Part shown: one piece after another, positions 37,524-57,039 of the stretch
How the letters are laid out: every line of letters begins with the position of its first letter
How positions within the stretch are numbered: the first letter of the stretch is position 1
NCBI RefSeq assembly: GCF_964204865.1
Contig: NC_135252.1
Location: 5,725,383-5,789,382, forward strand
Direction: 5' to 3'
Length of the DNA: 64,000 bases
Source: Styela clava
Taxonomy: Eukaryota > Chordata > Ascidiacea > Stolidobranchia > Styelidae
The notes under the pieces: model-generated
What the model saw: only the letters and a program-made list of their open reading frames with translations
The model's database searches: none
What the model was told of the DNA's origin: nothing
Translations under genes and position numbers: made by a program

Positions 37524-38551
37524 TCATGAAGTTTTATTAATGGTTTCTAGCATTTCTGTCGTATAATTCTCATCAAGATCCAATTCTTCTGTCAACATAT
37601 TATCTTCGCGAACAATCTTCTCATATTCTTTTTCATCTTCTGATTCATGAATACTTCGATCAATAGTAAATGGCAGGAGGCTTCTCTTTTTAGGGTCAAC
37701 TAATCTTCCTCCCTCTCTTCTACAAATGATCTTTCTAATTGAAAAAACCGGATAATGACTTTTCTCATGAACCATCTCCAGGGCAACTTTTATCCTGTAA
37801 ATGAGGCAAATTTGTTCTTAATAATAAAAATTTCTGCTTTCACATTACATTAAAACCTTCCAAGTTTCTTCCAGTAACATGACATTCGCTTATGCAGTGT
37901 CGCAACTGTTTAACTATAAGCTAAATACCCCAGTGGTTTTTAACAGGAGATCCATCCAATTTTTTTATATGTAAATATGCATATTGCTGAAACCATGACA
38001 CATGTCCCCTTATTTATATATACATACTCAACTGAGTTTTGAAGAAGAATAGTTCGTACAAAAAAAGGGTTAGTTAAATATTTATTAATATACTTTCACT
38101 TCCATTTTTAGGTATGATATTGGATGAAATATGAGTTATCATCCTTACCCGCATTTCGGATTATTGCAGTTAAAATCTGCTGTTCCATATACACTGGGTC
38201 CCTTTTTCTGCTCCTTCAGTACTTTGGTGACTTTAGATTCAAATCCAGGATCTTTCACAACAACGTGCTGCAAAAGAAATAATTTAGTTTAGTACAATTT
38301 TCACTATGTTGTCTTTCCAACAACATTATCTTGTGATTGAAATTTGTATAGAATATCCCCTAAATGGGTACAACAATCAAGAGGTCTACCGTTTCGTCAA
38401 TGTGACGAAGTTTATCTCCAGTTGTTAGGAAATTTTTACATTTTCCGCATAGAATTTCCCATTTTGATGGTGGGTCATTCTTGTTTGCTTTCAATCCAAA
38501 CTCTTTTTTACGCTTTCTTTCTTCTCTTTGCTTGATTTGAATGTTTTTAAT
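37524..38551 (-). CDS. RLR C-terminal zinc RNA-binding domain of the composite gene
   Basis: Exons 38390-38551, 38149-38267 and 37524-37794 end at a TAA at 37524. A basic bridging helix ([17 protein letters not shown]) precedes the domain. Zinc ligands are visible as ILCGKCKNF and FNCNNPKCG, the two Cys pairs of the RIG-I/MDA5/LGP2 family. HVVVKDPGF follows the position of the conserved His in the family. In RLRs this domain grips dsRNA ends or stems. An acidic tail ([18 protein letters not shown]) extends beyond the family core and ends ETINKTS. The neighbouring RLR at 60842-64000 has the same three-exon layout and also an acidic tail. Confidence 0.93.
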
Positions 38552-56500: not shown

Positions 56501-57039
56501 ATAGAAAATCAGTTAAAAGTTCAACATGCTCAGGCATATTTAGTAGTAACCTAATCATCGGTGGTTAAATGTACCATGCAGTAATTACAAGAAATCCACC
56601 AAGCCACTATCAATTAGCTCCAGCAACTGGAAATAACATAGCAACTAGCAGCTTAATATCTTGTATAGTTAGCGGTTGTAGATCTCTTATAATACTTTAC
56701 CAAATTATATAGAGACATAAATCTATCAAAGTTGAAAAATATGCACAGCGTCTGGGGCATAGATCTTTTTTAAATATTTGGTCACTTATCAAATGGAAAT
56801 AGATTAATAGAAAAGCTATTTGAACTCAGTAATACTGTATTTACTTTATAAAGATACTTTACAACATTTTCATGCTGGAGACTTCTATGCAATTCTAATT
56901 CTTCATAATAATTCAATATCATATCATCATCGTCATCATCAGTGCGATCTAAACGCTTTACTATGACATCTTTGTCATCGAACCTCCCTCTAAAAATAAT
57001 AGGTTGCTTTGTACAAAATGCCTTCAAATCATACACATT
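37524..57039 (-). CDS. Kinase-KEN-RLR composite: IRE1/RNase L-like module joined to a RIG-I-like receptor
   Basis: Modelled minus-strand exons: kinase 56845-57039, 55718-55777, 55509-55599, 54989-55176, 53822-53963; KEN 49842-50035 (or 50045), 49527-49696; linker 49392-49447; helicase 48638-48841 (duplicate 47817-48020), 47239-47365, 46643-46768, 46126-46276, 45510-45675, 44692-44793, 43942-44084, 43181-43301, 42476-42703, 42201-42368, 39161-39315; C-terminal domain 38390-38551, 38149-38267, 37524-37794. Using one duplicate, the sum is 3339 nt, a multiple of three, giving about 1112 residues plus an unseen N-terminus. From the KEN exons onward every junction has canonical GT-AG sites and matching phase. 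The kinase-KEN junction needs a cryptic donor and acceptor (see findings). RLRs bind non-self dsRNA in the cytosol; KEN domains are dimerisation-activated ribonucleases. An RNA-triggered nuclease is my inference. Two adjacent genes is the alternative. Confidence 0.7.
39161..49447 (-). CDS. RIG-I-like DECH helicase exons of the composite gene
   Basis: The linker exon ([18 protein letters not shown]) and eleven helicase exons. Superfamily 2 motifs in order: Q-like [13 protein letters not shown]; motif I split over two exons (IVAPTG then SGKT); Ia [57 protein letters not shown]; Hel2i insertion ([14 protein letters not shown]); [52 protein letters not shown]. Both the DECH box and TASPG-type motif III are typical of RIG-I, MDA5 and LGP2, and less so of Dicer. 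All catalytic positions look intact, so dsRNA-dependent ATPase activity is expected. No CARD is encoded upstream in the readable exons; the kinase-KEN module takes its place. Confidence 0.93.
39316..42200. other. Large helicase intron (2.9 kb) with repeats
   Basis: Separates the exons for motif V/VI (42201-42368) and the rest of motif VI (39161-39315), splitting QRMG|RIR. Contains a repeat at 39990-40100 related to 36655-36840, a small TIR element at 40100-40158, and a SINE-like stretch around 41270-41400 within a 119-codon plus-strand ORF (41083-41442). The inverted words acagtaaacagcat (about 41525) and atgctgtttactgt (about 41600) form a short palindrome. No host exon was recognised. Confidence 0.55.
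40100..40158. repeat. Minimal TIR element of the GGCGCTCC family
   Basis: Only 59 bp: ggcgctcccgaagtatgtga at the left and ggagtacc at the right. It looks like an internally deleted member of the family seen at 33267-33462 and 43346-43556. Confidence 0.5.
42980..43165. repeat. hAT-like element remnant in a helicase intron
   Basis: Starts cagtgtttctcaaacagtgg, then a G-rich run and the body shared with 2449 and 45031 (cttattttggatattta-like). It ends just short of the donor of the 43181-43301 exon. Confidence 0.6.
43346..43556. repeat. TIR element, GGCGCTCC/GGAGTACC family, in a helicase intron
   Basis: Full-length relative of 33267-33462: ggcgctccaggcgtgcgtac at the left, aggtaactaatttcg and atcaagttgtgtaa inside, ggagtacc at the right. 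Confidence 0.65.
45031..45332. mobile_element. hAT-type nonautonomous element with target duplication
   Basis: The ends cagtggttctgaa and ttgagaaccgctg are inverted copies. They are flanked by atttaaag and atctaaaa, a likely decayed 8-bp target duplication (6 of 8 match), the hAT signature. It is the most complete member in the window and lies in a helicase intron. Confidence 0.7.
47385..48195 (-). repeat. Tandem duplication, copy 1 (helicase exon plus introns)
   Basis: 811 bp, nearly identical to 48206-49015, with a 10-base spacer between. Contains the 204-nt exon at 47817-48020. I count only a handful of differences: an F/S codon change in VPDAKFED against VPDAKSED, two other point changes and a one-base A-run length change. 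Confidence 0.95.
48206..49015 (-). repeat. Tandem duplication, copy 2 (helicase exon plus introns)
   Basis: Upstream copy on the minus strand, with its exon at 48638-48841. The exon is 204 nt and starts and ends in phase 1, so either copy, or both, can be spliced without a frameshift. Confidence 0.95.
49527..50045 (-). CDS. KEN (kinase-extension nuclease) domain exons
   Basis: Exons 49842-50045 and 49527-49696 join in phase 0 (TTG|gttggt, ttcag|AAA). The product runs [12 protein letters not shown] ... SWRDTLYAV ... [20 protein letters not shown] ... [27 protein letters not shown] ... FAKYYTF. Human IRE1 has DVSDR, [34 protein letters not shown] and PYYF at the same places. The active-site Arg, Asn and His of IRE1 (RN..HHY) are therefore kept. 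The catalytic Tyr that precedes DLL in IRE1 and RNase L seems replaced ([10 protein letters not shown]), judged by eye. The upstream neighbour on the minus strand is the kinase and the downstream exon is the linker to the helicase, reached through an AC|gtgggt donor with matching phase. Confidence 0.9.
50925..52790 (-). mobile_element. Decayed non-LTR retrotransposon (Jockey/CR1-like), 3' part
   Basis: Same strand as the host gene, in the kinase-KEN gap. Recognisable in order: end of an AP-endonuclease domain ([28 protein letters not shown]; a SSDI-type motif), reverse transcriptase pieces ([38 protein letters not shown]; a [11 protein letters not shown] motif), a degenerate DDT box (DDTILLNSD) and the C-terminal tail ([29 protein letters not shown]). 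Frameshifts and stops break it, so it is dead. The [11 protein letters not shown] and LDLKKDF wording points to the Jockey/CR1/L2 superclade rather than RTE or LINE1. Confidence 0.85.
53304..53409 (+). other. Exon-like segment on the plus strand, unrecognised
   Basis: Bounded by ttcttttcag and gtatga and encoding [19 protein letters not shown] followed by [17 protein letters not shown]. Composition and both splice signals look coding. It runs against the composite gene and lies next to its retrotransposon, so it could be an orphan exon of a dead gene or chance. Confidence 0.25.
53822..57039 (-). CDS. Kinase domain exons of the composite gene (IRE1/RNase L type)
   Basis: Five exons encode about 225 residues. 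Visible motifs in order: VIVKRL (ATP-site Lys), [17 protein letters not shown] (helix C Glu), [12 protein letters not shown] (hinge), [18 protein letters not shown] (catalytic loop with Asp), ITDFGISKK (DFG), [11 protein letters not shown] (APE equivalent), [23 protein letters not shown]. The last string closely resembles IRE1 ([21 protein letters not shown]). RNase L, by contrast, is a pseudokinase without HRD and DFG. The region where a glycine loop should lie ([14 protein letters not shown]) lacks the glycines, so ATP binding may be altered. The exon at 53822-53963 can be read on to a TAG at about 53769 after HSHSFWTLE, which recalls the FFWSLE of IRE1, but the preceding RP segment is missing. 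The first exon begins after an acceptor in phase 0, so upstream exons are expected. Confidence 0.85.
54345..54490 (+). repeat. SINE-like dispersed repeat in a kinase intron
   Basis: Matches 25045-25200 over its length. It is preceded at 54129-54180 by a hAT-like terminus (cagtggttctcaaac). Confidence 0.5.

Follow-up and report, generated by a model that had tools for sequence, protein, structure and literature searches.

A 64,000-nucleotide stretch of the genome of Styela clava, hereafter the window (positions 5725383–5789382 of contig C3, NC_135252.1, in an assembly of 376.6 Mb and 379 contigs), contains a minus-strand gene in which a kinase and a KEN ribonuclease domain of the IRE1/RNase L type lie directly ahead of the helicase and C-terminal domain of a RIG-I-like receptor (RLR). 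The two halves almost certainly constitute a single fused kinase-KEN-RLR protein. RLRs are known for CARD- and MAVS-dependent signaling that changes transcription; here, an RLR sensor is seemingly wired straight to an RNase, which would place sensing and effect in one step. The fused architecture is strongly supported, at the level of sequence, by database gene models, an intron-free database entry (P0002), six tandem paralogues, and conserved introns at the junction. The analysis followed up an earlier note on the window, the observation of which was confirmed with corrections and the interpretation of which was partly supported.

In a Pfam search of the joined model of the window gene, all five domains were found to score above the curated cut-offs—Pkinase (3.9e-41), Ribonuc_2-5A, that is, KEN (1.8e-25, with 127/127 profile positions covered), DEAD (2.4e-23), Helicase_C (7.9e-17), and RIG-I_C-RD (3.6e-10)—bearing out the domain order on one strand that had been read from the letters. 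Among the proteins recorded for Styela clava, a stolidobranch sea squirt (P0001, P0003, P0004, and P0005), P0001 aligns with the window gene without gaps, with 12 substitutions in 1168 residues, and itself matches Pkinase (5.2e-45, from residue 14), RIG-I_C-RD (2e-10), and, above cut-off, DEAD, Helicase_C, and RIG-I_C. An AlphaFold model of the fused protein was built on a 52-row alignment, and in the fold comparison of P0001 the predicted structure matched an RLR helicase over residues 464–1137, with a kinase and then KEN also matched; no RNase L chain was among the 50 fold matches listed, which excludes nothing. At an E value of 0.001, no match to CARD was obtained in P0001–P0005; ankyrin repeats likewise gave none. 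Because LGP2 is also without CARDs, the CARD-less N-terminus bars assignment to the RIG-I/MDA5 type but not to the RLR family.

Assembled on the minus strand by eye and with a script, the gene comprises 24 exons and 23 GT-AG introns, with phases matching to give a single open frame of 1168 residues that ends with the stop codon at 37524. The gene had been taken to start at 57039, and an initial model from that position (23 exons, 1158 residues) also forms a single open frame. Comparison with P0001 pointed, however, to an ATG at 57283 as the likely start: an upstream exon (57283–57204) had been missed, and the exon claimed as the first had been begun 50 bases too early, the acceptor used by P0001 preceding 56989; exon 1 joins 56989 in phase 2 and is identical to P0001 residues 1–27. 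The description of 17 exons with GT-AG sites and matching phases was correct as to sites and phases, but its count spans only the region from the second KEN exon to the C-terminal domain. Exon 11 is doubled in the window by a duplication, whose two aligned blocks (48844–49015 with 48024–48195 and 48206–48505 with 47385–47684) are 98–100% identical; P0001 contains a single copy. As this exon is 204 bases long with equal phases, splicing can leave out or retain a copy without shifting the frame, and the presence of both would keep the frame but split the Walker A region. The doubling may be a recent duplication, an allele, or an assembly fault. As an alternative start of the helicase part, one candidate short ATG exon of matching phase was also seen by eye near 49.1 kb; it is used by no homologue at hand.

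The linker between the halves is hydrophilic and predicted to be disordered, and its RSPSRP stretch is kept in P0002 (SG...RSPSRP). That two adjacent genes, a solo kinase-KEN gene and an RLR without an N-terminal domain, have been wrongly joined here is very improbable. A stop codon does follow KEN when the exon is read through (49474–49472), solo kinase-KEN frames are present elsewhere in the genome, and one RLR without kinase-KEN (g2) lies in the same array as the window gene. On the other side, the identical order recurs in six tandem copies, both joints of exon 10 have same-phase counterparts in the paralogues g1, g3, and g5, which are 39–40% identical, and P0002 reads unbroken through both halves with the linker motif conserved; moreover, neither AATAAA nor ATTAAA occurs on the minus strand from the end of the KEN exons to the start of the helicase exons. 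A phase match at the two critical joints would be expected by chance in an estimated 1 in 9 cases or so. The two-gene reading was thus rejected on the paralogue introns, the polyadenylation-like signals, and P0002. Attachment of KEN to the end of the upstream RLR was likewise rejected, since the window gene and the other fused copies each start with their own kinase exon after the end of the preceding gene.

By tblastn, seven tandem genes (g1–g7), all on the minus strand of C3, were found, six of which carry kinase, KEN, and RLR in that order; g1, g3, and g5 correspond to P0003, P0004, and P0005, and g7 is the window gene, matched by P0001. P0003, P0004, and P0005 are encoded residue for residue by the genome, their spliced-alignment scores equaling the maximum minus the intron cost. 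Mapping with a splice-aware script, with indels disallowed, placed 23 introns in P0001, 25 in P0003, 25 in P0004, and 26 in P0005. Of the 23 introns of g7, 19 share column and phase with g1, the other four having same-phase counterparts within 2–8 columns; 20 are exact and three near in g5, and 19 exact, three near, and one without counterpart in g3, the model of which is without the first exons. Random intron placement gave a mean of 0.16 exact matches and at most 2 in 2000 trials. Among the shared introns are the one that follows KEN, in phase 2, and the one within the linker, in phase 1; g1, g3, and g5 have two additional introns in the linker region. Introns common to both halves and to the joint, in proteins only 39–40% identical, indicate that the fusion predates the duplication, and the same shared introns argue for a single fusion event. 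If P0002 comes from another species, the duplication is also older than that species split.

In a helicase tree (26 rows, LG+G4), the five fused proteins P0001–P0005 group together at 100/100, with P0001 and P0002 joined at 100/99 and P0003–P0005 at 99/97, and they join Ciona RLRs at 100/100. The Styela CARD-type RLR on contig C2 is separated from the other tunicates by a long branch (1.51), close to the midpoint root, and its placement is unsure. Helicase dN/dS among g3, g4, g5, and g6 is 0.25–0.31 in 6/6 pairs. Between g5 and g3, g4, and g6, dS is 0.25–0.27 in the helicase, about 0.03 in the kinase, and 0.03–0.05 in KEN; that is, the kinase half of g5 is near-identical to theirs, with about eight-fold more silent divergence in its helicase half. 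This pattern points to gene conversion in the effector half or to a swap of the sensor half. The C-terminal domain of g6, too, is set off from those of g3 and g4 (dS about 0.1, versus 0.03).

A protein search with the KEN-linker-helicase-start region as query (1416 candidates) yielded two matches, P0001 and P0002, each of which carries kinase, KEN, and RLR domains. An alignment search, in which 7992 candidates were scored, returned among the best 120 of 3433 matches the five kinase-KEN-RLR proteins P0001–P0005 and the plant kinase-KEN proteins P0023 and P0038, which are without a helicase. In a search without the kinase part, in which the 7988 candidates with most shared words were scored, PF06479 was found in P0001–P0005 and in none of the other 115 of the best 120 of 123 matches. 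Its carriers among the matches listed are thus four Styela clava proteins and P0002, with other tunicates possibly missing from the collection; the next best named rows listed after these five are Ciona RLRs with CARD_2, a domain present in P0006 and just below cut-off in P0121. P0002 has a frame of 1130 residues running almost end to end through a 3437-nt contig without introns. It matches no gene of the array, the only set with which it was compared, and is probably a spliced transcript from a second species. The earlier statement that no protein of this architecture has been described holds insofar as no published account of a kinase-KEN-RLR fusion was found in titles, abstract openings, and some passages (most subscription papers and bioRxiv lying outside this scope), and the passages of PMC9505182 and PMC6723221 with tunicate or RNase L terms contain no such architecture. 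The proteins themselves are, however, already in public databases under helicase names.

The catalytic residues of the fused proteins are largely kept, as judged from alignment. D338, R344, N345, and H349 of KEN (P0001 numbering) are invariant in 5/5 proteins, P0001–P0005, and R344-N345-x3-H349, found in these proteins and in the six gene copies, fits the R-x4-6-H motif of metal-independent KEN/HEPN RNases, of which the conserved R and H are needed for the RNase activity of KEN (passages of PMC3710099). HRD and DFG of the kinase are present in P0001 and the window gene, and with R-N-x3-H are kept in 6/6 tandem copies; one position beside an intron shows a false V in the six-copy comparison, the script having read through the junction. 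HRD, DFG, the Walker A lysine, and DECH are invariant in P0001–P0005, and the P0001 helicase contains the Walker A lysine, DECH, TAS, and QRxGRxR. The cysteines C1020, C1023, C1073, and C1078 of the C-terminal domain, a zinc-binding set of four, are invariant in all five proteins.

The N-terminal domains of RLRs are gathered when RNA is bound and filaments or clusters form, and the RNase of IRE1 and RNase L becomes active once kinase-KEN parts pair. With both modules of the fusion intact and the linker predicted to be disordered, RNA-driven oligomerization that pairs the KEN domains is plausible. The helicase and C-terminal domain would bind viral or other double-stranded RNA (dsRNA), and several molecules would align on one RNA, or RNA binding would release the N-terminal modules. 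Once brought together, the kinase-KEN modules would autophosphorylate and, in the manner of IRE1 and RNase L, form pairs, and the paired KEN domains would cleave nearby viral and cellular RNA, leading to a stop in translation or to the infected cell's death. One molecule would thereby hold both sensor and effector, bypassing both the OAS/2-5A and the CARD/MAVS steps, and the long flexible linker would fit such a direct switch from RNA to cleavage. Taken together, the gene and its five tandem sisters probably encode a single-polypeptide RNA-sensing ribonuclease, the main output of which is fairly likely to be dsRNA-triggered RNase activity.

Several observations weigh against this picture. The residue aligned with the catalytic tyrosine of IRE1, which we take to be Y892, is K, K, E, K, and R in P0001–P0005, respectively, so that RNA might be cut weakly or with another specificity. 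In P0005, two arginines of motif VI are replaced by H and S and a glycine of the glycine-rich loop by D, which may leave at least one copy with weak ATPase activity; in P0004, the S of TAS is replaced by F, and the database model of this protein is without the first kinase exons (the kinase N-lobe). P0001 and P0003–P0005 may be computed gene models, and a kinase-KEN tree does not resolve the fused kinase-KEN parts as one clade. Only the helicase and C-terminal domain are visible in g2, without kinase-KEN; it has an in-frame ATG right before the helicase, may have further N-terminal exons, and might regulate the fused sister genes in the manner of LGP2. KEN dN/dS, from 0.08 to 1.1, is based on 1–9 nonsynonymous changes per pair and says little, the kinase ratios likewise resting on few changes.

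It is, in addition, conceivable though rather unlikely that these proteins are PKR-like dsRNA-activated kinases, their kinase domains gathered by RNA binding, that phosphorylate translation or signaling factors, with KEN serving only as a dimer platform or a weak nuclease. Such a role would agree with the IRE1 tyrosine position not being kept, with P0001, P0002, and P0003 retaining the glycine loop, lysine, HRD, and DFG of the kinase, and with HRD/DFG kept in 6/6 copies, unlike in the kinase-like domain of RNase L. The invariance of D338 and R-N-x3-H in the five proteins, and of the latter motif in the six gene copies, would nevertheless be needless for a mere platform, and in IRE1 an active kinase likewise precedes an active RNase.

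Elsewhere in the genome, the KEN profile has 42 matches, 12 of which are six exon pairs on C3 (5.774–5.915 Mb, all on the minus strand). The 30 that lie beyond the array, often as single long frames and in some cases with a recognizable kinase, look like a lineage-specific expansion; expansion of KEN separate from the kinase is described for the tunicate Oikopleura in passages of PMC3710099. Of the 8/42 KEN loci fetched, the best match to the P0001 kinase-KEN part (39%, 9e-90) is L002, whose 409-residue open frame encodes kinase and KEN; with HRN replacing HRD, it may be a pseudokinase. Styela IRE1 (L001), which has a hydrophobic stretch before the kinase, matches P0001 at 36% (4e-65); for the P0005 kinase-KEN part, L001 and L002 are equally close, and the kinase-KEN tree does not settle the branching order. 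These relationships bear on IRE1/XBP1-like processing, in which KEN would cut one or a few host messages with the RLR part replacing unfolded protein as the trigger, a role that we regard as quite improbable. The 36% match to Styela IRE1 and the nearness of the module to IRE1 (18 solved sequences under 1e-25 include all 16 IRE1 and no RNase L) speak for it, and the closer solo kinase-KEN frame L002 speaks against it. Furthermore, no lumenal sensor or transmembrane segment lies ahead of the kinase: the roughly 10 residues between the ATG and the first kinase strand are too short a span to anchor the protein in a membrane at that place. Sequence does not tell which substrates would be chosen.

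The RIG-I_C-RD profile has eight genome matches above cut-off: four in the array (g3, g4, g5, and g6), a pair on C2, and a pair near 4.6 Mb on C3, where RLRs outside the array lie at 4.57 and 4.60 Mb. No match was obtained in g1, g2, or g7 in this genome search, supposedly because the domain is split over exons. On C2 (17754859–17765999; L023, L024), three RLR-like single frames were found: frames of 964 and 695 residues with CARD_2, one of which matches DEAD weakly (2.4e-7), and a frame of 628 residues matching RIG-I_C (the RLR insert) only. CARD-type and KEN-type RLRs thus coexist in Styela. A genome search with the OAS1_C profile gave no match, its controls being equally silent.

RNase L resembles the Styela fusion in its cytosolic kinase-like domain followed by KEN and in its antiviral logic, but senses 2-5A with N-terminal ankyrin repeats, whereas the fusion has a C-terminal RNA sensor and intact kinase motifs. 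IRE1 shares the kinase-then-KEN order, with lumenal and transmembrane parts before the kinase that the fusion is without; the sensor of the fusion is instead a C-terminal RNA helicase. RIG-I and MDA5 carry CARDs where the fusion has kinase-KEN. Dicer likewise combines an RLR-type helicase with an RNase in one chain, but contains RNase III and PAZ and makes small RNAs, KEN being a different, metal-independent RNase fold. Lophotrochozoan RLRs, from another animal group, also have non-CARD N-terminal domains (DED, IG, SAM, CASc, and death); the main text of PMC8998645 contains no mention of KEN or RNase, and its kinase passage concerns TBK1/IKK. In cnidarians and brachiopods, RLR-like receptors and HEPN RNases partner TRADD-N domains (passages of PMC8195603).

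If the fusion acts as proposed, foreign RNA would be sensed and RNA cut without an intermediate messenger, the N-terminal domain grafting of lophotrochozoan RLRs would extend to RNases, and the fusion would be a natural experiment on switching IRE1/RNase L-type nucleases by a new partner. It would also bear on antiviral defense in tunicates, the closest relatives of vertebrates (PMC5465252). We lean slightly toward stolidobranch tunicates having a further viral-RNA defense route, in which RLRs would serve as ligand-activated endoribonucleases, one chain standing for vertebrate OAS/2-5A/RNase L, beside CARD-bearing RLRs and in a fast-changing tandem cluster with homogenized kinase-KEN halves and one diverged sensor half. 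In practical terms, the protein is a compact candidate dsRNA-triggered RNase that is testable in vitro.

Table 1. Exons of the window gene (window positions) and members of the tandem array (C3 positions where marked).
Feature	Position	Strand	Remarks
Exon 1: start codon and kinase glycine-rich loop	57204..57283	-	ATG 57283, donor gtaaga
Kinase exons 2-6	56989-56845, 55777-55718, 55599-55509, 55176-54989, 53963-53822	-	GT-AG, in phase
KEN exons 7-9	53405-53278, 50045-49842, 49696-49527	-	Ribonuc_2-5A 1.8e-25
Exon 10, linker	49392..49447	-	enters phase 2, leaves phase 1
Exon 11, remaining linker and helicase start	48638..48841	-	
Second, near-identical copy of exon 11	47817..48020	-	tandem duplication, 820-821 bp spacing; end inferred from exon 11 length
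Helicase exons 12-16	47365-47239, 46768-46643, 46276-46126, 45675-45510, 44793-44692	-	DEAD, Helicase_C, RIG-I_C matches
Helicase exons 17-20	44084-43942, 43301-43181, 42703-42476, 42368-42201	-	DEAD, Helicase_C, RIG-I_C matches
Exons 21-24, helicase end and RIG-I-type C-terminal domain	39315-39161, 38551-38390, 38267-38149, 37794-37524	-	RIG-I_C-RD 3.6e-10
AATAAA polyadenylation-like signal	37509..37514	-	just past final stop
g6 C-terminal exons	60845..64000	-	tblastn with P0004/P0005; kinase-KEN part beyond window
g1 (P0003)	C3:5919018-5902332	-	
g2, RLR	C3:about 5899092-5888351	-	
g3 (P0004)	C3:5885841-5868282	-	
g4	C3:5864133-5844772	-	
g5 (P0005)	C3:5840773-5809411	-	
g6	C3:5805243-5786227	-	
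g7, window gene	C3:5782665-5762909	-	

The 3.2-kb intron within the KEN part of the window gene holds a decayed retrotransposon piece (52844–50928), with a reverse transcriptase match of 1.1e-8 at 52141–51875. An ordinary neighbor, a sorting nexin frame with SH3, PX, and BAR_3_WASP_bdg domains, lies on the minus strand at 7807–9174.

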